Shown here in pieces: positions 26,678-43,549 of a DNA stretch of 64,000 nucleotides (its first letter is position 1; every line of letters begins with the position of its first letter). Source of the stretch: Rhodanobacter sp. Its GTDB lineage: Bacteria > Pseudomonadota > Gammaproteobacteria > Xanthomonadales > Rhodanobacteraceae. The stretch spans positions 1 through 64,000 of the forward strand of contig SCRF01000015.1 in the NCBI GenBank assembly GCA_004322005.1. Reading direction: 5' to 3'. The notes under the pieces are model-generated. The model did not search any database. It was not told where the DNA came from and worked only from the letters and a program-made list of their open reading frames with translations. The translations under genes were made by a program, and so were the position numbers.

Positions 26678-27724
26678 ATGTCAGCAGCCACGATCAAAGA
26701 TGTAGCTCGAGAGGCCAAGGTTTCCGTGGCCTCGGTATCGCGCGCCATGAATGGCGGCAGCGGCGTGACCGCCGCGACCAGTGAACGCATCCACGCGGCC
26801 GCCAGCCGTCTGCAATACGTCCCGCATGCGGCCGCGCGCATGTTGATCACCCGGCGCAGCAACACCATCGGTGCGTTGCTGCCCGATCTGCACGGCGAGT
26901 TCTTTTCCGAGCTAATCCGCGGCATCGACCTGGCCGCGCGTGCGCGCGGCTTCCATCTGCTGGTATCGAGTTCGCACGACAGCGCCGAGGAAGCGGCGGC
27001 CGCGATGCGCTCGATGCAGGGGCGTGTCGACGGCCTGTTGATCCTGTCCGCGCGGGTCGATGCGGCGTTTTTGCGCAGCAACCTGCCCAAGTCCTTGCCG
27101 GTCGTACTGATCAACAGCGCGGTGAAAAGTACGGCGCATACCGTACTCAACGTCGACAACTTCGCCGGCGCAAGCGCAATGGTGCAGCATCTGCTCCAGG
27201 CTGGGCACGCGAGCGTTGCCTTCATTGCCGGCCCGCAAAGCAATTTCGATGCGCAGCAGCGCGACAAGGGCTATCGCGCGGCGATGGCGAAATACGCGCC
27301 GAACGCACCGATCCATATCGTCGCTGGCGATTTCACCGAGGAATCGGGTTACCGCGCCGGGCGCGAACTGCTGGCGCAGCAAACGCGCCCGCGCGCCGTA
27401 TTCGCCGCGAACGACATGATGGCGGTGGGTTGCCTGACTGCATTCAAGGAGGCGGGGTTGCATGTCCCGCAAGACATCGCGCTGGCCGGTTTCGATGACA
27501 TTCCGGTTGCACGCTATGTCACGCCGCCGCTCAGTACGGTACGGGTACGCATCGTGGAACTGGGCCGCATCGCGCTGGAACAACTGGTCGCGCAGCTCGA
27601 AAAAACCGAACCGCTGCCGGCCCATGCAGACACGCTGGGCTGCGAGATCGTGATCCGCGAAAGCTGCGGCGCCAGCCTCATTGCCACATCCAGCCAAAAC
27701 ATTCTCAGCACGTCACATCCGTAG
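26678..27724 (+). CDS. LacI-family transcriptional regulator
   Basis: Repressor of 348 residues. The N-terminal helix-turn-helix ATIKDVAREAKVSVASVSRA and hinge VPHAAARMLITRRSNTIG precede a periplasmic-binding-protein-like sugar domain (about 65-335). That domain has FSELIRGIDLAARARGFHLL, VFAANDMMAVGCLTAFKEAG and DIALAGFDDIPVARYVTPPL. It probably senses an oligosaccharide or sugar and controls the locus. Related 14-bp operators precede it and the GH1 gene. The TonB receptor gene follows after 20 bases and is likely co-transcribed. The inducer is unknown; a beta-glucan breakdown product is the natural guess. Confidence 0.93.
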   Translation: MSAATIKDVAREAKVSVASVSRAMNGGSGVTAATSERIHAAASRLQYVPHAAARMLITRRSNTIGALLPDLHGEFFSELIRGIDLAARARGFHLLVSSSHDSAEEAAAAMRSMQGRVDGLLILSARVDAAFLRSNLPKSLPVVLINSAVKSTAHTVLNVDNFAGASAMVQHLLQAGHASVAFIAGPQSNFDAQQRDKGYRAAMAKYAPNAPIHIVAGDFTEESGYRAGRELLAQQTRPRAVFAANDMMAVGCLTAFKEAGLHVPQDIALAGFDDIPVARYVTPPLSTVRVRIVELGRIALEQLVAQLEKTEPLPAHADTLGCEIVIRESCGASLIATSSQNILSTSHP

Positions 27725-27744: not shown

Positions 27745-30700
27745 ATGAAAACGTCACTGCACTTCAAAAAGAAATTGCTGGCCAGCCTGATCACCGCGTC
27801 GGTGACCGCGCTTGCGGTCGCGCCCACCGTTTCATGGTCGCAAACTGCAAACGCCACCTTGCGTGGCAAGGCGCCTGCCGGCGCCGTCATCACCGCCAGG
27901 GAAATCGCCACCGGCGCCGTGCGCCGTACCAAGGCGGACAGCGACGGCAGCTACGCCTTGGTCGGCCTGTCGCCAGGCACTTACAAGATCGATGCTGGCC
28001 CCGGCACAGAACATACCGTGACGCTGAGCGTTGCTTCGACGGCAAATCTCGACTTGACGGCCGCGCCTTCGGCCACCAACGCCACCATGCTGGGTGGCGT
28101 CACCGTCAATGCCACGACCCTGGTCGGGGTGAACACCTCGCAGGTCGGCAACGTGGTCTCGCTGCACCAGATCAACACCACGCCGCAGCTGACGCGCAAC
28201 TTCCTCGAGTTCGCCGACACCGTGCCGGGCATGGTGTTCGTGAACAACGGCGGCAAGACCTCGATCCAGAGCGGCGCCCAGCCGAGCAGCAACATCAACG
28301 TCTACATCGACGGCGTCGGCCAGAAAAACTACGTTCATGGCGGCGGCCTGAGCGGCCAGGCCGGCCCGAATCACGACGGCGACTTCGGCAATCCGTTCCC
28401 GCAGTTGGCGATCGGGCAATACCGCGTCATCACCTCGAACTACAAGGCCGAGTACGACCAGATTTCCAGCGCGGCGATCACCGCCGACACCAAGTCGGGC
28501 ACCAATAAATTCCACGGCGAGGCGTTCGACACCTTCACCGGTGACCGCTTCCGCGCGGCAACGCCGGCCGAAAATGTCGCTCATCAAAAGGCGCGCTCGA
28601 TCAGCCGCGAATATGGTTTCGCCCTGGGTGGCCCGATCATTCAGAACAAGCTGCATTTCTTCTTTACCTATGAAGGCAAGAGCTTCGATTCACCGACCAC
28701 CACCATTCCGCCGAGCGCTACGTACAACGGGGTGTCATATGCGACCTTCCTGCCGCCGAGCGCCGCTGCCCAGTTCGGGCCCAGCTCGTTGCCGTTCAAG
28801 GAAGATCTGTATTTCGGCAAAATCGACTGGGAACCGACCGACCGTGACCGCGTCGAACTAAGCACAAAGATCCGCAAGGAAACCCAGATCATCGGCGCCG
28901 GTGGCCAGACCGCCGCCTCGGCGAACTACAACTACCGCAACAATGACACCCGCTTCGACGGGCGCTGGCAGCACAGCACCGACCTGTGGACCAACGAGTT
29001 GTTGTGGACGTACGAAAATACGCTCGACACCCCGTCGCCGATCACCAACAACCCGGCAACCACCTACATCTGGGGGAATCCCTACACCCAGATATTGCAG
29101 ATCAACGGCCAGGATCCACGTCAGTATTTCGAAGCCTCGCAGAAAGGCAACGGTTTCCAGGACAATCTGACCTTCAACGACCTGAACTGGCACGGCGACC
29201 ACGTGATCAAGCTGGGCGTGAAGTACAAGCAAATCACCCTGCTCGACCGCGACAGCTCAACGAGTGCGAATTATTACTACAACGTCAGCCCGGCCGGCAC
29301 GGAAGTAACGCCGTTTCAGGTCGTGTTCGGCAAGGTGAACTCGGGCCTGCCGCTGACGGCCGTCTCTAAGAACATGCAGTTTGGCGCCTATATCCAGGAC
29401 GACTGGGCGGTCAATGACAAGTTGACCCTGAACTTGGGCATGCGCTGGGATTACGAAAAATCACCTGAGTTCATCAACTACAAGACCCTGGCGCCCATCG
29501 TCGCTGCAATCAATGCGCCGACCTACGTCTACGGCGGCCAGACGATCTCGCAGTCGTATGCGCAAAGCCTTGCCCTCGGCGGCATCAACATCAACGACTA
29601 CATCAGCACGGGCAGCAATCGCAAAGCGCCAAAGAACGAGTTCCAACCTCGACTGGGTTTCTCCTACGACCTCACCGGCGACGAAGATCACGTTATTTTC
29701 GGTGGTGTCGGCCGCGCCTACGACCGCAACCTGTTCGACGTGATCTCGCTGGAAAACAGCAAAAATGCAGTCTCCGAGCCTTCGATCAACTTTGAGAACC
29801 CCACCGGGCTCAATGGCTGCGGCCCCGGTCAGGCGGACGGCAAGCAATGCTTTGTGTGGGATCCGAAGTACCTCAACGCTGCCAATCTGCAAGGCTTGGG
29901 CAGCGGCGTGGGCGAAGTGGACATGTTCAACAACAACCTCAAAGCGCCGTACTCCGACCAGTTCAGCATCGGCATGCGCAACAAGCTGGGCGACTGGAAC
30001 ACCAGTGCCACCATCTCGCGCATCAACCAGTACAACGGCATCATCGGCACGCTGGGCAACCGCTACCCAAATGGTCACTACTATACCTACGGGACCCAGA
30101 CCAACCAGTGGGGTGGTGCCGGCGTGCCGGGTATCGGTGGCCTGATCCTGTGGGACAACGGCAAGGAAACCCGCAACACCGAGCTGCTGCTGTCGGCCGA
30201 AAAGCCATACACCCGCGAAAGCCACTGGGGCATGACGGTGGCCTACACCTATACTCACGCTACCCAGAATCGCCTGTATTCGGATCAGTATGCGTTCGAC
30301 CTGCCGGGCATCCAGTACTACCCGTTTCTGACTTCCAGCGCGGCGGCCAAACATCGGCTGGTGGTAACCGGCACGGTGGATGTGCCATGGGGCATCACCT
30401 TGGCCGGCAAGCTGACCCTGGCGACACCGTTGCCGGTGGCCGACATCGCCTGCTGCAACCTGATTCCGAACTCGGTCGGCGTAAATCACGAGATGGCGGC
30501 GGCCTACCCGGTGGTGGCTACGCCGCGCGGTGCCCATTTCCTGCTCGGCGGCCCGATCTTCGGCTACCGCTCGGTCGACCTGCAGGCCACCAAGAACTTC
30601 GCGCTGAGCCATGGCTTGGTGTTCTCGATGCGCTTGGACATCTTCAACCTGTTCAACTTCCACAACTACTCAAACACGATCAACAGCTGGTCGTCGCCGA

Positions 30701-30795
30701 GTGGCCAGTACCAGCCGTCTGTGATGTACAACCCGGTCGGCAATATCTTAGGCGTACCGCGTACCGTGAAGCTGACGGCGGACATCAAGTTCTGA
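27745..30795 (+). CDS. TonB-dependent receptor with carboxypeptidase-regulatory-like N-terminal domain (Oar-like)
   Basis: Outer-membrane active transporter of 1016 residues. A signal peptide (to about Ala-Asn-Ala 37) is followed by a CarboxypepD_reg-like fold (GAVITAREIATGAVRRTKAD, GSYALVGLSPGTYKIDAG) and a possible TonB box near MLGGVTVNA. A plug with NINVYIDGVGQKNYV and SGTNKFHGEAFDTFTGDRF leads to a barrel ending in Phe. A strong ribosome site (ggggagggg) precedes the start. Placement after lacI and before glycosidases fits xanthomonad carbohydrate-utilisation loci with TonB receptors. It would import oligosaccharides or glycan fragments; Oar-type receptors can also move proteins, so the cargo is unproven. 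Confidence 0.93.
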   Translation: MKTSLHFKKKLLASLITASVTALAVAPTVSWSQTANATLRGKAPAGAVITAREIATGAVRRTKADSDGSYALVGLSPGTYKIDAGPGTEHTVTLSVASTANLDLTAAPSATNATMLGGVTVNATTLVGVNTSQVGNVVSLHQINTTPQLTRNFLEFADTVPGMVFVNNGGKTSIQSGAQPSSNINVYIDGVGQKNYVHGGGLSGQAGPNHDGDFGNPFPQLAIGQYRVITSNYKAEYDQISSAAITADTKSGTNKFHGEAFDTFTGDRFRAATPAENVAHQKARSISREYGFALGGPIIQNKLHFFFTYEGKSFDSPTTTIPPSATYNGVSYATFLPPSAAAQFGPSSLPFKEDLYFGKIDWEPTDRDRVELSTKIRKETQIIGAGGQTAASANYNYRNNDTRFDGRWQHSTDLWTNELLWTYENTLDTPSPITNNPATTYIWGNPYTQILQINGQDPRQYFEASQKGNGFQDNLTFNDLNWHGDHVIKLGVKYKQITLLDRDSSTSANYYYNVSPAGTEVTPFQVVFGKVNSGLPLTAVSKNMQFGAYIQDDWAVNDKLTLNLGMRWDYEKSPEFINYKTLAPIVAAINAPTYVYGGQTISQSYAQSLALGGININDYISTGSNRKAPKNEFQPRLGFSYDLTGDEDHVIFGGVGRAYDRNLFDVISLENSKNAVSEPSINFENPTGLNGCGPGQADGKQCFVWDPKYLNAANLQGLGSGVGEVDMFNNNLKAPYSDQFSIGMRNKLGDWNTSATISRINQYNGIIGTLGNRYPNGHYYTYGTQTNQWGGAGVPGIGGLILWDNGKETRNTELLLSAEKPYTRESHWGMTVAYTYTHATQNRLYSDQYAFDLPGIQYYPFLTSSAAAKHRLVVTGTVDVPWGITLAGKLTLATPLPVADIACCNLIPNSVGVNHEMAAAYPVVATPRGAHFLLGGPIFGYRSVDLQATKNFALSHGLVFSMRLDIFNLFNFHNYSNTINSWSSPSGQYQPSVMYNPVGNILGVPRTVKLTADIKF

Positions 30796-30969: not shown

Positions 30970-32493
30970 ATGACAGATCAACGCATCAGGAACATCGTCA
31001 TCGTGGGGGGCGGCAGCGCCGGGTGGATGACCGCCGCCGCTCTGGCCAAGACACTCGGCCGCGAATGTTCGATCCGGCTGGTGGAATCGGAGGAGATCGG
31101 CATCATCCGCGTGGGTGAGGCGACCGTGCCGCATCTGTCGGTCTTCAACAAGGTGCTGGGTATCGACGAAGCCGATTTCGTGCGCCAGACCATGGGTACT
31201 TTCAAGCTCGGCGTGCAGTTCGTCGACTGGCAGAAACCCGGAAAATCCTACGTGCATGGCTTTGGCACCATGATCGGGCTGGACGTGGGCATGTTGCCGT
31301 TCCACCACTACTGGCTGCGCGCCCGGCAGGCCGGCCAGGCTGGTGACATCGGCGACTATTCGCTCAACACCCTGGCAGCCCCGCGCGGCAAGTTCATGGT
31401 GTCCGCCATCGATGCGCCGGCCAACACGCCGCTGGCCAATATCGCCTACGCCTACCATTTCGATACCGGCCTGTACGGGCGCTATCTTCGCCGCCAGGCC
31501 GAATCCATGGGCGTGCAGCGCACGGAAGGCAAGGTGTGCGACACCGTACTGCGTCCCCATGACGGCTTCGTAGATGCCATTGTGATGGAGAGTGGCGAGG
31601 TCATCCAGGCCGACCTGTTCATCGACTGCTCGGGCCTCCGCGGCCTGCTGATCGAGCAGGCGCTGCACACCGGCTACGAGGACTGGGGTCACTGGCTGCC
31701 CACCGATCGCGCCGTCACCGTGGGCTGCGAGGCCGTCGGCCCGCCGACGCCTTACACGCGAGCCACCGCGCAGGCGGCCGGCTGGCAATGGCGCATTGCG
31801 CTACAGCACCGGGTCGGCAACGGCCATGTCTATGCCGGCCGCTACCTCAGTGACGACGAGGCAGCGGCGACCCTGCTGCACAACCTGGACGGACGCGCGA
31901 CAGGCGACCCGCGCCTGATCCGCTTCCGCGCCGGCACTCGCAAGCAGGCGTGGAACCGCAACGTGGTGGCGATCGGTCTCTCCAGCGGCTTCCTCGAACC
32001 GCTGGAGTCGACCGGCATCTTCCTGATCCAGTCGGCGGTGATGCGCCTGCTGAACCTTTTCCCGCAGAAGGATTTCAGCCAGGCGCTGATCGACCGCTAC
32101 AACGCGCAGAGCCGCTTCGAGATCGAGCGCATACGCGATTTCCTGATCCTGCACTTTCACGCCACGGAGCGCGACGACACCCCGTTCTGGCGCTACTGCC
32201 GAACCATGGACATCCCCGACAGCCTGCGCAGCGTGATGGCGCTGTTCCGCGAGAGCGGACAGTTCATCCGCAACGCCGACGAGCTGTTTGGCCTGGTCAG
32301 CTGGGTACAGGTGATGCTGGGCCAGGGTGTCATCCCGCAGCACTACCACCCGATCGCCGATCAGATGCCGGAACCGGAATTGCGACACTTGATGGATCAC
32401 GTGAAACAGGTCATCGGCGCCTGCGTGGATGCCATGCCGCCCCACCAGGCCTTCATCGACCGCTACTGCGCCGCGCCGGCGCTGGCATCCTGA
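30970..32493 (+). CDS. Flavin-dependent tryptophan halogenase family protein
   Basis: FAD enzyme of 507 residues. The dinucleotide loop IVIVGGGSAGWMTAAAL is present. Lys79 (GTFKLGVQFVDW) falls at the number of the hypohalous-acid-handling lysine of PrnA, and Glu346 (SSGFLEPLESTGIF) matches the second catalytic residue. The family motif WxWxIP reads W272-Q-W274-R-I-A277, with Ala in place of Pro. Relatives sit beside TonB receptors and glycosidases in Caulobacter and xanthomonads. Their natural substrates are mostly unresolved; one relative (BrvH) brominates indole. Here it lies between the receptor and GH144 genes. A partner flavin reductase is not in the window. Confidence 0.9.
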   Translation: MTDQRIRNIVIVGGGSAGWMTAAALAKTLGRECSIRLVESEEIGIIRVGEATVPHLSVFNKVLGIDEADFVRQTMGTFKLGVQFVDWQKPGKSYVHGFGTMIGLDVGMLPFHHYWLRARQAGQAGDIGDYSLNTLAAPRGKFMVSAIDAPANTPLANIAYAYHFDTGLYGRYLRRQAESMGVQRTEGKVCDTVLRPHDGFVDAIVMESGEVIQADLFIDCSGLRGLLIEQALHTGYEDWGHWLPTDRAVTVGCEAVGPPTPYTRATAQAAGWQWRIALQHRVGNGHVYAGRYLSDDEAAATLLHNLDGRATGDPRLIRFRAGTRKQAWNRNVVAIGLSSGFLEPLESTGIFLIQSAVMRLLNLFPQKDFSQALIDRYNAQSRFEIERIRDFLILHFHATERDDTPFWRYCRTMDIPDSLRSVMALFRESGQFIRNADELFGLVSWVQVMLGQGVIPQHYHPIADQMPEPELRHLMDHVKQVIGACVDAMPPHQAFIDRYCAAPALAS

Positions 32494-32524: not shown

Positions 32525-33979
32525 ATGCTTCGAGCTGTATCCCGCTTTCTTCGCACCGCCAGCCTGGTGGCCCTGCTGGCGCTCGGCGCCGGTTGGCAGA
32601 CTCCTTCCTTTGCGCGGGAGCCCGCGGCACACTTCGTCGCCACGCCGGCGCAACAGGCGCTGGTGGACGACCTGGAACAGCGCACCTTTCGCTGGTTCTG
32701 GGACAGCGCCAATCCGCGCAACGGACTGCTACCGGACTCCTGGCCGGGGCATGCGTTCTCCAGCATCGCCGCGGTGGGCTTCGGGCTGACCGCCTACGGC
32801 GTCGGCGTGGAGCGCGGCTACATCACCCGCCAGCAGGCGGTCGAGCGCACCCTGGCCACGCTGCGCTTTTTCCGCGACGCGCCGCAGAACGCCAGCGAGG
32901 ATGACGCCACCGGCTATCACGGCTTCTTCTACCACTTCCTCGACATGCAGACGGGCCTGCGCGAGGGGCGCTGGACCGAGCTGTCCAGCGTGGACACCAC
33001 CCTGCTGCTCGGCGGCGTGCTGTTCGCGGAGTCCTATTACGACCGCGACACGCCGCAGGAAAAGGAGATCCGACTGCTGGCCGATGCGATCTACCGCAAC
33101 GTGGACTGGCCATTCATGCAACCGCGTGCGCCGCTGATCAGCATGGGCTGGACACCGGGCGGCAAGTTCATCCCGGCCAACTGGAAGGGTTACAACGAAG
33201 GCATGCTGGTGTACATCCTGGCGCTCGGCTCGCCGACCCATCCGGTGCAGTCGGATGCGTGGAAAGCCTGGCTCGCCACCAACCACCTCCGCTGGGGCAG
33301 CTTCGAGGGACAGACCTTTCTCAACTTCGCGCCGCTGTTCGGCCATCAGTACAGCGAAACCTGGGTGGACTTCCGCGGCATCCGTGACGCGTGGAGTCGC
33401 CAGCACGGCCTGGACTATTTCGAGAACAGCCGCCGTGCCACCCTAAGCCAGCGCAACTATGCCATCGCCAATCCCGGCCACTGGACCGGCTACGGCAGGA
33501 ACGTGTGGGGGCTGACCGCCAGCAACGGGCCGGGCAATGTCGTGGTGCGGGGCAACGACGGCACGCGCAGGTTCTACGGCTACACCGCGCGCGGCGCCGG
33601 CCTGGATTACATTTCCGACGACGGCACCATCGCACCCACCGCTGCCGGCGGCTCAATCGCCTTCGCGCCGGAGATCGTGATACCGGCGCTGGCCGCAATG
33701 AAGCAGCGCTACGGCAGATACATCTACAACCAGTACGGGTTCGTCGATGCGTTCAACCCCAGTTTCCACGACGGCAAGATCCATCTGCGCACCGGCCGCG
33801 TGCTGCCTGGCGTCGGCTGGGTCGACAGCGTGCAGCTGGGCATCGACCAAGGGCCGATCGTGCTGATGATCGAGAACTGGCGCAGCGGCTTCGTCTGGAA
33901 GACGATGCAGAAGAACCCCTACATCCGCAAGGGCTTGCTGCGCGCCGGCTTCACTGGCGGCTGGCTGGAGCGCGACTGA
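32525..33979 (+). CDS. Secreted GH144-type glucanase (glycoamylase-like domain)
   Basis: Protein of 484 residues with a signal peptide (MLRAVSRFLRTASLVALLAL to about Phe-Ala 30). A PF10091-type glycoamylase-like domain begins at FRWFWDSANPRNGLLPDSWP, with FSSIAAVGFGLTAYGVGVER, WTELSSVDTTLLLGGVLFAE and DQGPIVLMIENWRSGFVWK. GH144 members characterised elsewhere are endo-beta-1,2-glucanases that release sophoro-oligosaccharides; that activity is inferred here. ATG 32525 gives the signal peptide. It opens cassette one, with GH39, a binding protein and two permeases behind it. A second copy, N-terminally truncated, lies at 39266. Confidence 0.88.
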   Translation: MLRAVSRFLRTASLVALLALGAGWQTPSFAREPAAHFVATPAQQALVDDLEQRTFRWFWDSANPRNGLLPDSWPGHAFSSIAAVGFGLTAYGVGVERGYITRQQAVERTLATLRFFRDAPQNASEDDATGYHGFFYHFLDMQTGLREGRWTELSSVDTTLLLGGVLFAESYYDRDTPQEKEIRLLADAIYRNVDWPFMQPRAPLISMGWTPGGKFIPANWKGYNEGMLVYILALGSPTHPVQSDAWKAWLATNHLRWGSFEGQTFLNFAPLFGHQYSETWVDFRGIRDAWSRQHGLDYFENSRRATLSQRNYAIANPGHWTGYGRNVWGLTASNGPGNVVVRGNDGTRRFYGYTARGAGLDYISDDGTIAPTAAGGSIAFAPEIVIPALAAMKQRYGRYIYNQYGFVDAFNPSFHDGKIHLRTGRVLPGVGWVDSVQLGIDQGPIVLMIENWRSGFVWKTMQKNPYIRKGLLRAGFTGGWLERD

Positions 33980-34047: not shown

Positions 34048-35541
34048 ATGCGTGATCTGCTATTCGCCATCGTCATCGCCTGTGCCGCCGCGCTGCCGGC
34101 GCAGGCGCAGGCGCAGGAAACCGTGCATGTCGACGCCAGGGCCAAGGCGACGCCGTTTCCTCATTTCTGGGAACGCATGTTCGGCTCGGGCCACGCCACC
34201 TTGTCGCTGCGCGCGAGCTATCGCAGCGACCTCCGCGCGGTCAAGCGCGTGGCTGATTTCCAGTACGTGCGTTTCCACGGCATCTTCGACGACGATGTGG
34301 GCGTGTACAACGAGGACGAACATGGCCGGTCGATCTACAACTTCACCCTCGTCGACCAGATCTACGACGGACTGCTGCGCGACGGCGTGCGGCCGGTGGT
34401 GGAGATCGGCTTCATGCCCAAACGGCTGGCGTTCAATCCGGATGCGCTGCATGCGTTCTGGTACAAGCCGAACGTGTCACCGCCCAAGAGCTACGACAAG
34501 TGGGACGCCTTGGTGAGCGCGTTTGCGCAGCACCTGGTACGGCGTTATGGCATCGACGCGGTGTCGAAGTGGTACTTCGAGGTGTGGAATGAACCGAACA
34601 TCGATTTCTGGGGCGGCGTACCGCGCCAGAAGTCGTATTTCGAACTCTACGACCACACCGCGCGCGCCCTGAAAAGCGTCGACCCGCGCCTGCGCGTGGG
34701 TGGTCCGGCGACCGCCGCAGCGTCATGGGTCGGCGCCTTTTTGGAGCATGCGGCAAAAGCACATGTGCCGGTGGACTTTGTGTCCACGCACGGCTACGCC
34801 GATGACACGGTGGAGAACCTGTTCCACAACGATAAACCGGTGCCGCAGGACGACCGTGTATGCCGCGCCGTCGCCAAGGTACAGCGGGAGATAAAGGCTT
34901 CGACGACGCCGAATCTGCCGCTGCTGTGGACCGAGTGGAATGTCATTGGGAGAGACGGCGCGCGCGACACCACCTACGTCGGCCCGGCGCTGGCCAATAC
35001 CGTGCGCGAGTGCGACGGCATGGTCGACATGATGTCGTTCTGGACCTTCTCCGACGTGTTCGAGGAGAACGGTCCCAGCCGCGCGCCGTTCACCGGCCAG
35101 TTCGGCCTGCGCGCCAGCGGAGGCATCAACAAGCCAAGCTACTACGACTTCGGGCTGCTGCACGCGCTGGGCCACGAACGCCTGGCAAACCGCTCCATGA
35201 ACGCCATTGTCACGCGCAGGAAGGATGGCAGTCTGGCCATCGCGGTATGGAATCTGGTTGATCCAGGGCAACACGGCGCCACCCGCTCGATGCGACTGGT
35301 GGTGCGCGGGGTGCAGCCAGATGCGTCGGTGTCGATCCAACGTGTCGATACCGAGCACGGCAACGTACTGCCGGTTTATGCAAAGCTCGGTAAGCCACGC
35401 TATCCGACGCGGGCGCAGGTGGCCTTGATGAACGCTGCCACCGAGTTGCCGCCGCCCGAACGCGGGCATCTGGCAGGCGGTGTGCTGACGCTCACGCTGG
35501 AATCAAACGCATTGGTACTGGTAACAGTGGCAAGCCACTGA
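34048..35541 (+). CDS. Secreted GH39-family glycosidase
   Basis: Retaining glycosidase of 497 residues with a signal peptide (MRDLLFAIVIACAAALPAQAQA). A TIM barrel is followed by a small beta domain. FPHFWERMFGSGHATL, the acid/base Glu182 in FEVWNEPNIDFW and nucleophile Glu296 in LLWTEWNVIG are typical of clan A family 39, which holds beta-xylosidases and iduronidases. The ribosome site is strong (gggagagga). It lies between the GH144 and binding-protein genes and is absent from the second cassette. Beta-xylosidase is the usual label, but family 39 also includes other exo- and endo-activities, so the substrate is open. Confidence 0.87.
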   Translation: MRDLLFAIVIACAAALPAQAQAQETVHVDARAKATPFPHFWERMFGSGHATLSLRASYRSDLRAVKRVADFQYVRFHGIFDDDVGVYNEDEHGRSIYNFTLVDQIYDGLLRDGVRPVVEIGFMPKRLAFNPDALHAFWYKPNVSPPKSYDKWDALVSAFAQHLVRRYGIDAVSKWYFEVWNEPNIDFWGGVPRQKSYFELYDHTARALKSVDPRLRVGGPATAAASWVGAFLEHAAKAHVPVDFVSTHGYADDTVENLFHNDKPVPQDDRVCRAVAKVQREIKASTTPNLPLLWTEWNVIGRDGARDTTYVGPALANTVRECDGMVDMMSFWTFSDVFEENGPSRAPFTGQFGLRASGGINKPSYYDFGLLHALGHERLANRSMNAIVTRRKDGSLAIAVWNLVDPGQHGATRSMRLVVRGVQPDASVSIQRVDTEHGNVLPVYAKLGKPRYPTRAQVALMNAATELPPPERGHLAGGVLTLTLESNALVLVTVASH

Positions 35542-35627: not shown

Positions 35628-36929
35628 ATGGCCGGTTCGCATGACGGCACTTGGCGATGGCGGCGGGGACTGGCACTTGCCAGCCTCGTGCTGTGGCTCG
35701 CGAGCTGCGGTGGTAACCGACACGACATGCTGACCTTCTGGACCTTCGGCCCCGAGGGCGAGGTGATGCAACAACTGCTGCCGGAGTTCGAGCGCGCGCA
35801 TCCGGACATCCACATCAAGCTGCAGCAGCTGCCGTTGAGCGCCGCGCACCAGAAGCTGCTCACCGCCTTTGCCGGCGGCTCGACGCCAGACATGACCCAG
35901 CTCGGCAATACCTGGATTCCGGAAATGGTGGCGCTGCAAGCGCTGGAACCGCTGCAATCCTACGTCGATCACTCGCGCGTGGTGCAGCCGGACGACTACT
36001 TCGCCAGCATCTGGGCCACCAACGTGATCGACGGCACGCTGTACGGCGTGCCCTGGTATGTCGACACGCGGCTGCTGTTCTACCGCAGCGACCTGTTGAA
36101 AAAGGCCGGTTTCGATGCGCCCCCCACCACCTGGGCGCAGTGGCGCCGGATGCTGGCCGCGCTCAGCGACCCGGCACAGCACCGCTACGGCATCCTGCTG
36201 CCGACCAACGAGTACCAGCAGCTGATGTCGCTGGCGCTGCAACAGCCCGACCCGCTGCTGCGCGACGGCGGTCGCTACGGCAACTTCGAGAGCGCCGGCT
36301 TCAAGCGCGCGCTGCGGTTCTACGTGGACACGTTCCGGCTGCACCAGGCACCGGCGATCACCAACGTGGAGGCGGGCAACCCGTGGTCGGAGTTCGGCCG
36401 CGGCGTGTACGCGTTCTATTTGTCCGGACCGTGGAACATCGGCGAGTTCCGCGCGCGGCTGCCAGCATCGGAGCAGGCCGACTGGTCCACCGCACCGCTG
36501 CCCGGGCCGGACAGTGCGGGCATCGGCGTGGCCGGCGGCTCCAGCCTGGTGATCTTCCGCGCCTCGAAGCACAAGGCGGCGGCCTGGGCGCTGATCGAAT
36601 ATCTGTCGCAGCCGAAGGTGCAGCAGCGCTTCTACGGCCTGGTAGGCGACATGCCGCCGCGACGCAGCTCGTGGGAAGGCGGCGCGCTGCGCGACGACCC
36701 CAAGGCGCGCGCGTTCCGCGAGCAGCTGGAACACGTGCGGCCGACGCCCGCCGTGCCGGAATGGGAGCGCATCGCCAACGCCATGCAGCTGCAGGCGGCG
36801 CGTGCCGTCGCCGGCGAGCTGACGATCGATCAGGCCGCCGCCGAAATGGATCGCCAGGCCGACCACATTCTGGAGAAGCGCCGCTGGATGCTCGACCATG
36901 CGGCGCGCGCGCCGCAGGCGGCGCGATGA
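35628..36929 (+). CDS. Sugar ABC transporter substrate-binding lipoprotein, cassette 1
   Basis: Binding protein of 433 residues of the family 1 (MalE/UgpB-like) class. Its signal ends in lipobox LASC with lipidated Cys27. The mature opening is MLTFWTFGPEGEVMQQLLPE, followed by FAGGSTPDMTQLGNTWIPEM, GVPWYVDTRLLFYRSDLL and YAFYLSGPWNIGEF. Its stop overlaps the permease start by four bases (ATGA), so the genes are coupled. It aligns along its length with the cassette 2 protein at 40522, so the cassette was duplicated. It should capture oligosaccharides in the periplasm; exact specificity unknown. Confidence 0.92.
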   Translation: MAGSHDGTWRWRRGLALASLVLWLASCGGNRHDMLTFWTFGPEGEVMQQLLPEFERAHPDIHIKLQQLPLSAAHQKLLTAFAGGSTPDMTQLGNTWIPEMVALQALEPLQSYVDHSRVVQPDDYFASIWATNVIDGTLYGVPWYVDTRLLFYRSDLLKKAGFDAPPTTWAQWRRMLAALSDPAQHRYGILLPTNEYQQLMSLALQQPDPLLRDGGRYGNFESAGFKRALRFYVDTFRLHQAPAITNVEAGNPWSEFGRGVYAFYLSGPWNIGEFRARLPASEQADWSTAPLPGPDSAGIGVAGGSSLVIFRASKHKAAAWALIEYLSQPKVQQRFYGLVGDMPPRRSSWEGGALRDDPKARAFREQLEHVRPTPAVPEWERIANAMQLQAARAVAGELTIDQAAAEMDRQADHILEKRRWMLDHAARAPQAAR

Positions 36930-37819
36930 ACGCGCCGCGCGCCGCATGGCTGTTTCTGGCGCCGGCCCTGCTGGTGCTGGGCATATTTTTTCTGCTGCCG
37001 GTGATCGGTGCGCTGGGCCTCAGCCTCACCGACTACGACCTGTACGCACTGGCGGACATCCACAACCTGCGCTTCGTGGCGCTGCACAACTATCTCGCCT
37101 TGCTGCAACGGCCGCTGTTCTGGTCGGCGCTGGGGCATACGGTGTATTTCGTGGCGGTCGGCGTGCCGCTGTCGATGCTCACCTCGCTGGGCGCCGCGCT
37201 GCTGCTGAACTCGCCGCTGGCGCGCTGCAAGCCGTTCTTCCGCACCGCGCTGTTCGCGCCGGTGGTGACCACGGTGGTGGCGGTGGCGGTGATCTGGCGC
37301 TACCTGTTCAACACCAAGTACGGCATCGCGAACTTTGTGCTGGGCCAGCTGGGCATTCATCCGATCGACTGGCTGGGGGACCCGCACTGGGCGATGCCCA
37401 CGATCATCCTGTTCGCGGTGTGGAAGAACTTCGGCTACAACATGATCATCTTCCTGGCCGGGCTGCAGGCGATTCCGCCGGAACTGTACGAGGCGGCGCG
37501 CATCGACGGCGCCTCGGCGTGGCGGCAGCTGCGCCACATCACCGTGCCGATGCTCGGGCCAACCCTGCTAATGGTGGGCATCCTCACCGTGTCGGGCTAT
37601 TTCCAGCTGTTCGCCGAGCCCTACGTGATGACCGAAGGCGGTCCGCTGCAAAGCACCACCAGCGTGCTTTACCTGATGTACGACGAAGGCTTCAAGTGGT
37701 GGAACCTCGGCAGCGCATCGGCGGTGGCGTTCCTGTTGTTCCTGATCATGTTTGCGGTCACCGCGGTCATGCTCAAGCTCGCGCGGTGCGGCGAACCCCG
37801 CGAGCAGGAGCCGGCATGA
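36926..37819 (+). CDS. Sugar ABC transporter permease (MalF-like), cassette 1
   Basis: Inner-membrane permease of 297 residues with six predicted helices. The N-terminus RAAWLFLAPALLVLGIFFLL and the EAA loop for the ATPase, YEAARIDGASAWRQLRHITV, mark the first CUT1 permease subunit. The ATGA overlap with the binding protein and the four-base overlap with the next permease show tight coupling. No ATPase is encoded nearby; the orphan ATPase at 22127-23218 is the candidate. Nearly the same protein is encoded at 41838. Confidence 0.93.
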   Translation: MNAPRAAWLFLAPALLVLGIFFLLPVIGALGLSLTDYDLYALADIHNLRFVALHNYLALLQRPLFWSALGHTVYFVAVGVPLSMLTSLGAALLLNSPLARCKPFFRTALFAPVVTTVVAVAVIWRYLFNTKYGIANFVLGQLGIHPIDWLGDPHWAMPTIILFAVWKNFGYNMIIFLAGLQAIPPELYEAARIDGASAWRQLRHITVPMLGPTLLMVGILTVSGYFQLFAEPYVMTEGGPLQSTTSVLYLMYDEGFKWWNLGSASAVAFLLFLIMFAVTAVMLKLARCGEPREQEPA

Positions 37820-38637
37820 ACCCGCGCACGGCGAAGCTGCTGATCAACGGCTTGCTGCTGGGCGCTTCGGCAGCGGCGCTGTTCCCGCTGCTGTGGATGC
37901 TGTCGGTGTCGCTCATGCACCCGGGCGAAGCCGGCGCACTGCCGCCGCCGCTGTGGCCCGCGCACGCCACGCTGCACAACTACCGCGAACTGTTCCTGCG
38001 CGCCGGCATGGGCCGCTACCTGCTCAACAGCCTGGCCGTATCGACGGCAATCACCGCGCTGTCGCTGGCGTTCAACCTGATGGCCGGCTACGCCTTTGCC
38101 AAGCTGCGCTTCGCCGGGCGCGAGCGGCTGTTCCGGGCCCTGCTCGGCGCGCTGGTGATTCCCGCCCAGGTGGCGATGCTGCCCCTGTTTCTGCTGCTGA
38201 AAACCGTCGGCCTGGTCGACAGCTACGCGGGCGTGATCATGCCTGCGATGGCCACCGTATTCGGCATCTTCCTGGTACGCCAGTACGCACGCAGCATGCC
38301 GGACGAGCTGCTGGAAGCCGCGCGCATCGACGGCGCGGGCGAGTGGCGCATCTTCGTGCAGATCGTGCTGCCCCTGATGAAGCCGATCATGGTGACGCTG
38401 GCCATCTATACCTTCCTCACCGCCTGGAACGATTTCATGTGGCCGCTGATCGTGCTGACCGGGCAGGATCATTACACGCTGCCGATCGGGCTGGCCTCGC
38501 TGGCGCGCGAGCACGCGCAGGACACCGAGCTGATGATGGCCGGTTCGGTGGTCACCGTGCTGCCGGTGCTGGCGCTGTTCCTGCTGCTGCAGCGCTATTA
38601 CCTGGATGGGTTGATGCTGGGCAGCGTGAAGGGGTGA
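37816..38637 (+). CDS. Sugar ABC transporter permease (MalG-like), cassette 1
   Basis: Second CUT1 permease subunit, 273 residues. N-terminal helix LLLGASAAALFPLLWMLSVS, a periplasmic stretch with LHNYRELFLRAGMGRYLLNS, the EAA loop LEAARIDGAGEWRIFVQIVL and a short tail RYYLDGLMLGSVKG are those of MalG-type subunits. It overlaps the preceding permease by four bases and ends cassette 1. A 628-base gap rich in repeats follows before the truncated GH144 copy. Confidence 0.93.
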   Translation: MNPRTAKLLINGLLLGASAAALFPLLWMLSVSLMHPGEAGALPPPLWPAHATLHNYRELFLRAGMGRYLLNSLAVSTAITALSLAFNLMAGYAFAKLRFAGRERLFRALLGALVIPAQVAMLPLFLLLKTVGLVDSYAGVIMPAMATVFGIFLVRQYARSMPDELLEAARIDGAGEWRIFVQIVLPLMKPIMVTLAIYTFLTAWNDFMWPLIVLTGQDHYTLPIGLASLAREHAQDTELMMAGSVVTVLPVLALFLLLQRYYLDGLMLGSVKG

Positions 38638-39265
38638 ACCTGCGGTTGGGCGTTCCCGCGAGCACCGCGGCCCCTCACCTCCCTTCGACAAGCTCAGGAC
38701 AGGGCAATCCTCTCCCCCAAAGGAAATACGAGCCGGGGGAGAGGAGGCAGTGGGGGTGCGGGGATGGTGTGCGCTGCGCAAGGCTGTCGGGGGTATGGCG
38801 GCAACTTGACCTCCCCTCCTCAATCCTCCCCCGGCGGGGGAGGAGGCGATGGTGTGCGCTGCGCGCACGGTTTTATTTTGGGGTCAGGGACGAATGGCAC
38901 TTACTTAAGCGCGAAATCATGTTTTTCGTCATTCCCGCGAAAGCGGGAATCCAGTGCCTTTAAGCGCTTGGAGGCCACGGAAGGCACTGGAGCCCCGCTT
39001 TCGCGGGAATGACGAACCTTAAGGTAAGTGCCATTCGTGTCAGGGACATTTTCGACAGGAGGCGAAGCCAGACACTGCTGACCGGGTCAGCGCCCGACAC
39101 GAAAAACAAGATGTCAGGGACAGTTCCTGGGGGAAACCGATGGCCGGAGTGCCCAGGTGTCCGGGCGGCGAGCGGCTGGCTCCATCGGCGGAGTGTCATG
39201 GAGCGGGTAGGCGCAAGCCGGGTTGCAGGGTCATTTAACGTCCTCCGTCCCGGTTCTGGGGCCTG
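38638..39265. other. Repeat-rich gap between the two transport cassettes
   Basis: No intact gene is seen. The stretch holds a 17-base direct repeat (GATGGTGTGCGCTGCGC at 38763 and 38848) and the inverted-repeat element at 38890-39038. Three copies of GTCAGGGAC lie at 38883, 39039 and 39113, two of them flanking that element. The right end runs into the truncated GH144 copy, whose in-frame homology ends within about ten codons upstream of 39266 at a TAA (39236). The region looks like debris of rearrangement or insertion. Confidence 0.7.
38890..39038. repeat. MITE-like inverted-repeat element
   Basis: The ends are inverted copies: ACGAATGGCACTTACTTAAG (38890-38909) and CTTAAGGTAAGTGCCATTCGT (39018-39038). 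Inside is a second palindromic pair, ATTCCCGCGAAAGCGGGAAT and the complementary CCGCTTTCGCGGGAATGACG. GTCAGGGAC lies on both flanks (38883-38891 and 39039-39047), like a near target duplication. It encodes no transposase. A diverged copy lies at 59239-59375. Confidence 0.75.
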
Positions 39266-40525
39266 GTGCCCGATCACTATCCCGGCCGATCGTTCTCCAG
39301 CATCGCTGCCGTGGGCTTCGGCCTCACTGCCTACGGTGTCGGCGTCGAACGCGGCTACATCACGCGCGAGCAGGCGATCGGGCGCACCTTGGCCACCCTG
39401 CGCTTCTTCCACGATGCGCCGCAGAACGACAGCGAGGACGATGCCGCCGGCTACCACGGCTTCTTCTACCATTTCCTCGACATGCACACCGGCAAGCGCG
39501 AGGGACACTGGACCGAACTGTCCAGCGTGGACACCACGCTGCTGCTCGGCGGCGTGCTGTTCGCCGAGTCCTACTACGACCGCGACACGCCGCAGGAAAG
39601 GGAGATCCGCCGCCTCGCCGACGCGATCTACCGCCGGGTCGACTGGCCGTGGATGCAGCCGCGCAAACCGCTGATCAGCATGGGCTGGACGCCCGGCGGC
39701 AAGTTCATCCCGGCCGACTGGAAGGGCTACGACGAGGGCATGCTGATCTACGTGCTGGCGCTGGGCTCGCCGACCCATCCAGTGAGTGCCGGTGCGTGGA
39801 AGGCGTGGACCGCCACCAATGAGCGCAGCTGGGGCACGTTCGAGGGCCGGACCTTTCTCAACTTCGCGCCGCTGTTCGGTCACCAGTACAGCCAGACGTG
39901 GATCGATTTCCGCGGCATCCGCGATGCCTGGAGCCGCGAGCACGGCCTCGACTATTTCGAGAACAGCCGTCGCGCCACCTGCAGCCAGCGCGACTATGCG
40001 ATCGCCAACCCCGGTCACTGGACCGGCTACGGCAAGGACATCTGGGGCCTGACTGCCAGCAACGGCCCCGGCAACTTCGTGGTCAAGAGCAGCGCCGGCG
40101 AGCGCAGGTTCTATGGCTACACTGCGCGCGGCGCCGGCCTCGACCATATCGTCGACGACGGCACCATCGCGCCCACCGCGGCCGCTGGCTCGATCGCGTT
40201 CGCACCGAAGATCGTGGTGCCCGCGTTGATGGCGATGAAACGCCGTTACGGCCAGTGGATCTACGACCGCTATGGTTTCGTCGATGCGTTCGACCCCAGC
40301 TTCCACCTGAAGACTCCCCTGCGCACCGGCAGACTGGTACCAGGCGTGGGCTGGGTCGATACCGAGCAACTCGGCATCGACCAGGGGCCGATCCTGCTGA
40401 TGATCGAGAACTGGCGCAGCGATTTCGTCTGGAAGGTGATGAAAAGGAACCCGTACATCCGCAAGGGACTCCAGCGCGCCGGGTTCACCGGCGGCTGGCT
40501 GGCGCGGCCCGTGCCGGTGCCATGA
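39266..40525 (+). pseudogene. GH144-type glucanase, second copy, N-terminally truncated (no signal peptide)
   Basis: The frame encodes 419 residues matching the GH144 protein at 32525 from its Leu69-Pro70-Asp71 onward, including FSSIAAVGFGLTAYGVGVER, WTELSSVDTTLLLGGVLFAE and DQGPILLMIENWRSDFVWK. About 68 N-terminal residues are missing: the signal peptide and the start of the catalytic domain. In-frame upstream sequence is only RPPSRFWGL, back to a TAA at 39236. Translation could begin at GTG 39266, giving a cytoplasmic and probably non-functional protein. The rest is intact and its stop overlaps the next gene by four bases (ATGA), so the 5' loss may be recent. It could still be translated to keep the cassette coupled. 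Confidence 0.72.
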
Positions 40526-41841
40526 ACCGCCGCCGGTCGCCAGCGGATAGGCCATCGCGGCTGCGCCGCTGGTGGCTGGTGTTGCTGCTGGCCGGCACAT
40601 GCGGCGGGCTGTCCGCCTGCAGTCATCCGACCCCGGATAGGCACACGCTCACGTTCTGGGCGATGGGCAACGAAGGCGAGGCGGTGGCACAACTGATACC
40701 CGGGTTCGAGCACGCCCATCCGGATATTCACGTGACGCTGCAGCAGCTGCCGTGGAAGGAAGCCCACCAGAAACTGCTTACCGCCTATGCCGGCGACACC
40801 ACGCCGGACATCGCCCAGCTGGGCAATACCTGGATCGCCGAACTGGCCGCGCTGCACGCGCTGCGGCCGCTGCAACCGTACGTCGCGCACTCCCGCGTGG
40901 TGCAGCCGGACGACTACTTCACCGGCATCTGGGCCACCAACCGGATCGATGGCATCCTGTACGGGATACCGTGGTACGTCGATACCCGCCTGCTGTTCTA
41001 CCGCAAGGATCTGCTCAAGGCAGCCGGCTTCGATGTGCCGCCGCGCAGCTGGGCCGAGTGGTCACGACAGATGGCCGCACTGAAGGCTCGCGACACGCCG
41101 GGCCATTTCCCGATCCTGCTGCCGACCAACGAATTCGAACAGCTGCTCTCGCTCGCGCTGCAGCAGGATGCGCCACTGCTGCGCGACGGCGGACGCTACG
41201 GCAATTTCGAGAGCCCCGGTTTCAAGCGGGCGCTGGCCTTCTATGTCGGCATATTCCGGCAACGGGAGGCACCGCTGCTGTCCAACACCGAGGTCGCCAA
41301 CCCGTGGCTCGAGGTCGGCCGCGGCGTGTATGCGTTCTACCTGTCCGGCCCATGGAACATCGGCGAGTTTCGCCGGCGCCTGCCGGCCGCGCAGCAGGGC
41401 GACTGGTCGACCGCTCCGTTGCCCGGCCCGGACGGTCCCGGCGCCGGCATTGCCAGCGGCTCCAGTCTGGTGATCTTCCGCCGTTCGCGGCATCAGGCGC
41501 AGGCGTGGCAGTTGATCGAGTACCTGTCGCTGCCGGCGGTGCAGCGCAAGTTCTACGAGCTGGTCGGCGACATGCCGCCACGGCGCTCGTCGTGGCAGGG
41601 TGGCACGCTGCGCAGCGACCCCGATGTGCAGGCGTTCCGCGAACAACTGGAGCGGGTCAGGCCGACGCCGGCGGTACCCGAATGGGAGCGCATCGTCACC
41701 GGGATGCAGCTGGTCGCCGCCCGCGCCGCGCATGGCGAATTGACGGTGGACCAGGCCGCGGCCGAGATCGACCGGCGGGCCGATGCGATCCTCGCGAAGC
41801 GCCGCTGGATGCTCGACCACCACCGCGGTCCGCAGCCATGA
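40522..41841 (+). CDS. Sugar ABC transporter substrate-binding lipoprotein, cassette 2
   Basis: Paralogue of the binding protein at 35628, 439 residues. The signal ends in LSAC with lipidated Cys33; HTLTFWAMGNEGEAVAQLIP, YAGDTTPDIAQLGNTWIAEL and YAFYLSGPWNIGEFRRRL are conserved. Its start overlaps the truncated GH144 gene (ATGA). Differences from cassette 1 are spread along the protein rather than confined to one domain, so specificity may differ. Regulation probably follows the cassette promoter, not seen here because of the rearranged upstream gap. Confidence 0.92.
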   Translation: MNRRRSPADRPSRLRRWWLVLLLAGTCGGLSACSHPTPDRHTLTFWAMGNEGEAVAQLIPGFEHAHPDIHVTLQQLPWKEAHQKLLTAYAGDTTPDIAQLGNTWIAELAALHALRPLQPYVAHSRVVQPDDYFTGIWATNRIDGILYGIPWYVDTRLLFYRKDLLKAAGFDVPPRSWAEWSRQMAALKARDTPGHFPILLPTNEFEQLLSLALQQDAPLLRDGGRYGNFESPGFKRALAFYVGIFRQREAPLLSNTEVANPWLEVGRGVYAFYLSGPWNIGEFRRRLPAAQQGDWSTAPLPGPDGPGAGIASGSSLVIFRRSRHQAQAWQLIEYLSLPAVQRKFYELVGDMPPRRSSWQGGTLRSDPDVQAFREQLERVRPTPAVPEWERIVTGMQLVAARAAHGELTVDQAAAEIDRRADAILAKRRWMLDHHRGPQP

Positions 41842-42731
41842 ACCGGCAGCGCGCCGCGTGGCTGTTTCTCGCCCCGGCACTGCTGGTGCTGGGGGTGTTC
41901 TTCATCCTGCCGGTGATTGCCGCGCTGGGCCTGAGCCTCACCGACTACGATCTGTATGCGCTGGCGGACATCCACAACCTGCGCTTCGTCGGCCTGCACA
42001 ACTACTGGGCGCTGCTGCACCGGCCGTTGTTCTGGTCGGCGCTGGGCAACACGTTCTACTTCGTGGCGGTGGGCGTGCCGTTGTCGATCGCCGCGTCGCT
42101 GGTCGCCGCGCTGCTGCTCAATTCGCCGCTGGCGCGGATCAGGCCGTTTTTCCGTACCGTGCTGTTTGCCCCGGTGGTGACCACGGTGGTGGCGGTGGCG
42201 GTGATCTGGCGCTACCTGTTCAACACCCGGTACGGCCTGGTCAATTACGGCCTCGCGGAAATCGGAATCCATCCGATCGACTGGCTCGGCGATCCGCACT
42301 GGGCGATGCCGACCATCATCGCGTTCGCGGTGTGGAAGAACTTCGGCTACAACATGATCATCATCATGGCCGGGCTGCAGGCGATCCCGCCCGACCTGTA
42401 CGAGGCCGCGCGCATCGATGGCGCCTCGGCGCCGCGACAGTTCTGGCACATCACGCTGCCGCTGCTCAGGCCCACCATGATGCTGGTCGTGATCCTGACC
42501 GTGGCCGGTTATTTCCAGCTGTTTGCCGAGCCGTATGTGATGACCGAGGGCGGCCCGCTGCAAAGCACGGTCAGCGTGCTCTACCTGATGTACCAGGACG
42601 GTTTCAAATGGTGGAACCTCGGCACCGCCTCGGCCGTGGCGTTCATGCTGTTCCTGATCATCTTCGCGGTGACCACGCTGCTGCTGCGGCTGGCGCGGCG
42701 CGGGGAACATCCCGCAGGCAAACGGACATGA
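41838..42731 (+). CDS. Sugar ABC transporter permease (MalF-like), cassette 2
   Basis: Six-helix CUT1 permease of 297 residues, same length as the cassette 1 homologue and nearly co-linear with it. The EAA loop YEAARIDGASAPRQFWHITL, the pore region YFQLFAEPYVMTEGGPLQST and WRYLFNTRYG are retained. Start and stop overlap the neighbouring genes by four bases each. It needs an ATPase from elsewhere in the genome. Confidence 0.93.
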   Translation: MNRQRAAWLFLAPALLVLGVFFILPVIAALGLSLTDYDLYALADIHNLRFVGLHNYWALLHRPLFWSALGNTFYFVAVGVPLSIAASLVAALLLNSPLARIRPFFRTVLFAPVVTTVVAVAVIWRYLFNTRYGLVNYGLAEIGIHPIDWLGDPHWAMPTIIAFAVWKNFGYNMIIIMAGLQAIPPDLYEAARIDGASAPRQFWHITLPLLRPTMMLVVILTVAGYFQLFAEPYVMTEGGPLQSTVSVLYLMYQDGFKWWNLGTASAVAFMLFLIIFAVTTLLLRLARRGEHPAGKRT

Positions 42732-43549
42732 ACCCGCGGCTGGCCAAGGTGCTGATCAATGGTTCGCTGTCCGCTCTGGCGGCAGCCGCGCTGCTGCCGC
42801 TGCTGTGGATGCTGTCGGTGTCGTTCATGGCGCCGGGCGAAGCCAGCGCGTTGCCGCCGCCGCTGCTGCCCGCGCATGCCACGCTGCACAACTATCGCGA
42901 GCTGTTCGCGCATGCCGGCATGGGACGCTACCTGCTCAACAGCCTGCTGATCTCCAGCGCGATCACCGCGCTGGCGCTGGCCAGCAACCTGATGGCCGGC
43001 TATGCGTTCGCCAAGCTGCGTTTCGCCGGCCGCGAGCGGCTGTTCCAGGCCTTGATCGGCGCACTGGTGATCCCGGCGCAGGTGGCGATGCTGCCGCTGT
43101 TCCTGCTGCTGAAGACGATCGGCCTGGTCAACAGCTACGCCGGCGTGATCGTGCCTGGCATGGCCACCATCTTCGGCATCTATCTGGTGCGCCAGTATGC
43201 CCGCGGCGTGCCGGACGAATTGCTGGAGGCGGCGCGCATCGACGGCGCCAGCGAGCTGCGCATCTTCGGGCAGATCGTGCTGCCGCTGCTGAAACCGATC
43301 ATGGTGACGCTGGCGATCTTCACCTTTCTCGCCGCATGGAACGACTTCATGTGGCCGCTGATCGTGCTGACCGGACAGGAGCACTACACGCTGCCGCTGG
43401 CGCTGGCCTCGCTGGCGCGCGATCACGTGCAGGACAGCGAGCTGATGATGGCCGGCTCGGTGGTCACCGTGCTGCCGGTGCTGCTGCTGTTCCTGGCGTT
43501 GCAGCGGTATTACCTGCAAGGGCTGCTGCTGGGCAGCGTGAAGGGTTGA
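42728..43549 (+). CDS. Sugar ABC transporter permease (MalG-like), cassette 2
   Basis: Second permease subunit, 273 residues, matching the cassette 1 protein at 37816 over its whole length. The EAA loop LEAARIDGASELRIFGQIVL and tail RYYLQGLLLGSVKG are present. The gluconokinase gene begins 31 bases later, so sugar-acid phosphorylation may be co-expressed with this importer. Confidence 0.93.
   Translation: MNPRLAKVLINGSLSALAAAALLPLLWMLSVSFMAPGEASALPPPLLPAHATLHNYRELFAHAGMGRYLLNSLLISSAITALALASNLMAGYAFAKLRFAGRERLFQALIGALVIPAQVAMLPLFLLLKTIGLVNSYAGVIVPGMATIFGIYLVRQYARGVPDELLEAARIDGASELRIFGQIVLPLLKPIMVTLAIFTFLAAWNDFMWPLIVLTGQEHYTLPLALASLARDHVQDSELMMAGSVVTVLPVLLLFLALQRYYLQGLLLGSVKG

Follow-up and report, generated by a model that had tools for sequence, protein, structure and literature searches.

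We consider it likely that the gene at positions 30970 to 32493 (forward strand) of the window, that is, the whole 64,000-nucleotide stretch of Rhodanobacter sp. DNA that was analysed, encodes a functional halogenase, two-component and FADH2-dependent, from the TonB-linked subfamily containing Xcc4156 and BrvH, that the proline-to-alanine change at the end of its WxWxIP motif is tolerated, and that its partner within the locus is the neighbouring TonB-dependent receptor. The kind of enzyme is a known one, of which this is a new member; what is interesting, though unexplained, is its genomic partnership.

Halogenase gene, fold and predicted chemistry

The open reading frame begins with an ATG at 30970, has a stop codon ending at 32493, and encodes 507 amino acids. 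The PF04820 (Trp_halogenase) profile covers the protein over its full length (E 1.4e-193; 644 bits versus a cut-off of 21; profile positions 1-458 of 458), in agreement with the halogenase-family assignment of the earlier note. The GxGxxG flavin site is present as GGGSAG at residues 13-18 with no leader ahead of it, and the catalytic pair K79 and E346 and the Fx.Px.Sx.G motif (FLEPLESTG, residues 341-349) are also present. The WxWxIP motif reads WQWRIA (W272-Q-W274-R-I276-A277; codons 31783-31800, within the pattern-matched letters 31780-31806), the final alanine being specified by GCG at 31798-31800. K79, E346 and the altered motif are thus all located where the earlier note had placed them.

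The nearest solved chains are 9luq, 6y1w (Xcc4156 of Xanthomonas campestris) and 6frl (BrvH of Brevundimonas). An AlphaFold model built with 46 sequences had a pLDDT of 93.3, its least certain part being the FAD loop (residues 41-50, mean pLDDT 60), and the best Foldseek match of this model was Xcc4156 (TM 0.95, 50% identity). Xcc4156 aligns over the whole length and shares the Lys/Glu pair, but it carries WMWRIP instead of WQWRIA and Asn instead of Gly at the position of residue 349. BrvH has the same fold (TM 0.94) and both catalytic residues, but it reads WQWGIP, has Ser at position 349 and is 44-45% identical. With these closest solved relatives, this fold and an adjoining TonB-dependent receptor (the last being our own criterion for the subfamily), the enzyme belongs to the TonB-linked Xcc4156/BrvH subfamily. 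The tryptophan halogenases PrnA and RebH share the K79/E346 numbering and the fold, although they are only 29-32% identical to it; they are reported to act on free tryptophan in natural-product pathways (PMC8407142).

In the established chemistry of the family, as described in PMC7336383, HOX is made at the flavin and tunnelled to the Lys/Glu pair and the bound aromatic. In the Rhodanobacter enzyme, a general flavin reductase would supply FADH2, FAD-C4a-OOH would oxidise bromide or chloride to HOX, and HOX would travel through the tunnel to K79/E346, which would place the halogen on an electron-rich aromatic other than free tryptophan. One flavin reductase match (PF01613) is present elsewhere in the genome. 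As BrvH and the Xcc enzymes, the nearest characterised relatives, are reported to accept indole derivatives and not free tryptophan (PMC7336383), a non-tryptophan substrate is plausible, and this part of the earlier proposal, that the substrate might be a different one, holds up. The same source describes BrvH as preferring bromide and the Xcc enzymes as only brominating, Xcc4156 included, whose native substrate is given as unknown. It also reports that the second halide-site residue is Gly in almost all known halogenases, Ser in BrvH and two Xcc enzymes, and Asn in Xcc4156. Residue 349, next to the proposed halide site, is Gly in our protein as opposed to the Ser usual in the subfamily.

Three more members of the family are encoded in the same genome. 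Two of them read WQWRIP at the motif; the third, truncated by a contig end, reads WIWDIG. PADLOC returned no defence-system match.

Position 277 and other unusual residues

The WxWxIP motif has been proposed to block oxygenation (PMC5945002; PMC10696468). If loss of the proline opened a shield between substrate and flavin, the enzyme might act as an aromatic monooxygenase, an option that the earlier note had also raised, and a halogenase-like flavoprotein, QhpG, is reported to hydroxylate a protein tryptophan (PMC7876137). We nevertheless regard an oxygenase as very improbable, because a 46-row alignment containing both Pro and non-Pro kinds shows no variation at W272, W274, I276, K79 or E346, because the proline has been lost repeatedly with the Lys/Glu pair kept, and because two solved relatives carry Ala at the same position. 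The latter, 9lu2 ('L11-2 tryptophan halogenase putative', WIWDIA) and 9ltb ('Tryptophan halogenase', WLWDIA), match our protein far less well than does Xcc4156 (213 and 208 bits versus 549). QhpG differs in being structurally closest to CmlS and in dihydroxylating a Trp of QhpC (PMC7876137), and its NCBIfam profile matched our protein weakly (26 bits, far under the cut-off of 240), as did that of LodB (22 bits versus 400). A 2023 review calls the roles of the residues within WxWxIP unclear (PMC10696468), and another reports variants of the motif among halogenases, a number of which lack the motif or its variants (PMC8407142), for which reason we have treated the motif as usual but not defining. 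Reading the alanine as a sign of an oxygenase is not supported.

Proline is the norm at the end of the motif, as the earlier note had implied. In a set of 80 loci fetched regardless of position 277, 78 have Pro in the main homologue, one has Gly and one Gln, and K79 and E346 are kept in all 80. With 45% identity as the lower limit, 137 of 149 distinct homologues likewise have Pro, although six of the 12 exceptions (L135, L140-L143 and L150) were fetched for lacking Pro. K79 and E346 are each present in 149 of 149; a joint loss of these residues and the proline, sought as a mark of an oxygenase, occurred in none of the 12. The proline is thus usual but dispensable in the family, and its loss is unaccompanied by loss of the halogenation residues. 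The solved relatives gave no sign that Ala is usual in proven tryptophan halogenases: 31 distinct solved sequences matched, and of the nine among them whose motif was seen in an alignment, six have Pro, two Ala (9lu2 and 9ltb) and one Gly (2pyx).

Alignment of the close relatives, which the earlier note had proposed, showed that the non-Pro state marks one subgroup. Ala277 is common to the genes of G016 (94% identical) and G009 (79%), and that of G003 (74%) has Met; therefore, Ala277 is neither a sequencing error nor a chance event. The remaining 17 of the 21 homologues fetched with more than 60% identity (window included) have Pro. These four non-Pro genes (three Ala, one Met) form one four-species clade (SH-aLRT 99) on a 62-row tree, a quick tree with SH-aLRT support only and with column 277 kept in. 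At least five Pro/non-Pro changes are seen on the same tree: in the window clade, in L135, in the L140/L141/L143 clade, in L063 (Gly) and in L089 (Gln); that is, beyond the window clade the proline was lost at least four more times, to Ala twice, to Gly and to Gln. Asp occurs in L150, which shares its genus with L135. Of 398 genomes of the order, 10 contain the GWQWRIA codon pattern, and seven of the 10 places are halogenase genes. When the pattern was relaxed to GWQWRIxLQ, 149 of the 398 matched; a rough count by eye among the matches listed gave three rows with Ala, one each with Met, Asp and Leu, and Pro in the others.

Four loci were fetched from the clade in which Ala arose convergently. 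In L146, L147 and L149, but not in L148, a gene for a Cupin_8 protein, presumably JmjC-like, lies between the receptor match and the halogenase. Cupin_8 gene clusters also occur in 12 of the 80 loci fetched regardless of position 277.

The window gene and that of G016 depart from the family at other near-invariant sites as well: G47R, A166T, F223L and S290G. R47 (codon 47, 31108-31110) replaces a Gly of the GVGEAT FAD loop that, outside the clade, 41 of the 42 family rows keep, and among homologues of at least 45% identity it is common only to the window gene and its closest relative, G016. Because of these four differences, altered flavin handling is possible, and G47R may matter more than P277A for the binding of flavin.

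Several altered near-invariant sites in these two genes might also mean that the enzyme is decaying, with P277A, G47R, F223L and S290G marking a lineage that is losing activity. The frame is intact and K79 and E346 are kept, however, and the dN/dS ratio is 0.18 versus G016, 0.17 versus G009 and 0.22 versus G003, compared with 0.26, 0.05 and 0.19 for three pairs of Pro-type halogenases. The first three values lie below those of five of seven, six of six and three of six other operon genes, respectively. The halogenase gene is under purifying selection within its clade, and on the dN/dS values we rejected decay as very unlikely. Most likely, the protein is a halogenase, probably an ordinary member of the family in spite of Ala277 to judge by its residues, and the change from Pro to Ala would be a tolerated tuning of the tunnel-lining strand and no switch to oxygenation.

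The conserved operon

The setting described in the earlier note, between a TonB-dependent receptor and glycosidases, was borne out. The first operon gene encodes a LacI-family regulator (26678-27724; PF00356/PF13377), which is also found upstream in related operons. It is followed by the receptor gene (27745-30795; 1016 amino acids; PF25183 and PF00593, with PF13620 just below the cut-off), whose product has a carboxypeptidase-regulatory-like N-terminal stretch, is one we take to be Oar-like, and belongs to 'type A' of the two receptor lineages found in the operon. Downstream of the halogenase are genes for a PF10091 glucanase (32525-33979; E 5e-82), a family that we take to be GH144, and a GH39 glycosidase (34048-35541; PF01229, E 5e-103). 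Their starts were assigned within frames open from 32429 and 33391, respectively, that of the glucanase on the basis of its signal-peptide-like N-terminus. An ABC sugar-binding protein (35628-36929; PF01547) and two ABC permeases (36926-38637) complete the operon; the permeases were assigned from their reading frames and their conserved order in related operons, without a Pfam scan, and the boundary between them is placed at about 37816-37819. All of these genes are on the forward strand.

A second module on the same strand (39266-43549) contains a PF10091 copy lacking its 5' part, a second binding protein (about 40522-41841) and more permease frames, whose extent was taken from ORF lists alone. 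In this PF10091 copy (39000-40525), a stop lies just ahead of the start of the conserved match, so that the 5' part is missing in frame. Together with its binding protein and permease set, it looks like a partly decayed tandem duplication.

The order LacI regulator, TonB receptor, halogenase, PF10091 glucanase, binding protein and two permeases is found in 22 of 24 compared operons, window included; L045 starts after LacI, and in L103 the importer precedes the receptor. Loci with the same operon include Rhodanobacter records. The GH39 gene directly follows the glucanase gene in the window, L039 and L115 and is farther off in L103 and L123. More widely, with neighbouring genes called as mechanical ORFs, a receptor ORF ends less than 700 bases upstream of the halogenase on the same strand in 54 of the 75 loci with room to tell; counting both sides, 62 of these 75 have a receptor no more than 1 kb away, and in 13 there is none that near. 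In the open-access literature searched, no text was found on a halogenase/TonB gene link, and a term search of the available text of a Xanthomonas receptor survey (PMC1790865) and a Shewanella sugar survey (PMC2996990) found no word starting with 'halogenase'.

Several features of related loci deserve mention. TonB-linked halogenases are often in tandem, 25 of the 80 loci holding at least two. Thirteen loci (L067, L076, L085, L091, L095, L097, L098, L102, L104 and L110-L113) encode a halogenase-like protein that is full-length and evolves fast, and in which some or most of GxGxxG, GVGEAT, K79, WxWxIP and E346 are gone. That such a degenerate partner stays in frame beside intact copies, as it does in Caulobacterales, sphingomonads, Alteromonadales and Cellvibrio-type bacteria, suggests a subunit without catalytic function. 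The draft genome of G016 has two versions of the operon (L115 and L118), one with an Ala halogenase and a type-A receptor and the other with a Pro halogenase and a type-B receptor, which may come from mixing in this 79%-complete draft.

Co-divergence of halogenase and receptor

When distances were compared over the 253 pairs from the 23 operons complete for all seven genes, two blocks emerged: the receptor grouped with the halogenase (partial r 0.65), and the glucanase with the importer. Using partial Mantel tests controlled for glucanase and importer on the 19 closer operons, the halogenase was correlated with the receptor (r 0.68; none of 5000 permutations as high) but not with the LacI regulator (-0.17), the glucanase (-0.09), the binding protein (-0.20) or the permeases (0.08 and 0.24; 440 of 5000). 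The link persists when only the 14 Pro-type operons are considered (r 0.49, 0 of 3000; other genes -0.21 to 0.16), so the single deep A/B split is not its sole cause, and a reading in which that one split drives the link was rejected. Nor does nearness alone predict a link to the receptor only, as the glucanase gene is at least as near to the halogenase gene on the chromosome as is the receptor gene. Repeated exchange of a two-gene receptor-halogenase cassette would predict the pattern. In L039, a type-A receptor is paired with a Pro-type halogenase, showing that receptor type and Ala are not strictly tied.

The earlier note had suggested that the enzyme handles an aromatic part of the glycan or its host plant. 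A role on the glycan predicts co-divergence with the glucanase or the importer, which is absent; we have abandoned that role, and the suggestion as a whole is not supported. Instead, the co-divergence suggests that the aromatic substrate would belong to the receptor's ligand or to the receptor itself. The partner of the halogenase in the locus would then be the ligand or, less likely, the receptor, and not the glucanase.

The second of these possibilities is that, before the TonB receptor polypeptide is exported, the halogenase modifies it in the cytosol by halogenation or oxygenation of an aromatic residue. An enzyme acting on an imported ligand should track the importer, which would bring that ligand to the cytosol, as well as the receptor; that the halogenase tracks the receptor only makes a case for this idea, as do the lack of a leader before the GGG motif and the precedent of QhpG, a cytosolic flavoprotein with a halogenase-like fold whose target protein is later exported (PMC7876137). 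However, joint exchange of two adjoining genes could give equal co-divergence, in L039 the receptor is of type A while the halogenase is not, and no aromatic residue stands out among the many that are invariant: a search for a marker found 31 W/Y/H columns identical in at least 23 of 24 receptors, none of them telling. A protein search of the same genome with the receptor gave only one other match (29%), too little for a halogenase-free control. On balance, we think it unlikely that the receptor polypeptide is the substrate, and slightly less likely still that TonB-linked halogenases as a group are receptor-maturation enzymes that halogenate (or, in Pro-less lineages, oxygenate) a receptor aromatic in the cytosol before export and thereby tune ligand binding. 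If true, such maturation would explain why the halogenase co-diverges only with the receptor in the outer membrane, and not with the components in the periplasm and inner membrane that deal with the same sugar.

The reading that we favour remains a working halogenase with the TonB receptor as its locus partner. The natural Pro/Ala/Met/Gly/Gln/Asp series at the end of WxWxIP, with the Lys/Glu pair intact, makes the "anti-monooxygenase" role of the motif directly testable, and the pairing of receptor and halogenase provides a specific lead, worth testing, as to what the TonB-linked halogenases act on in nature.
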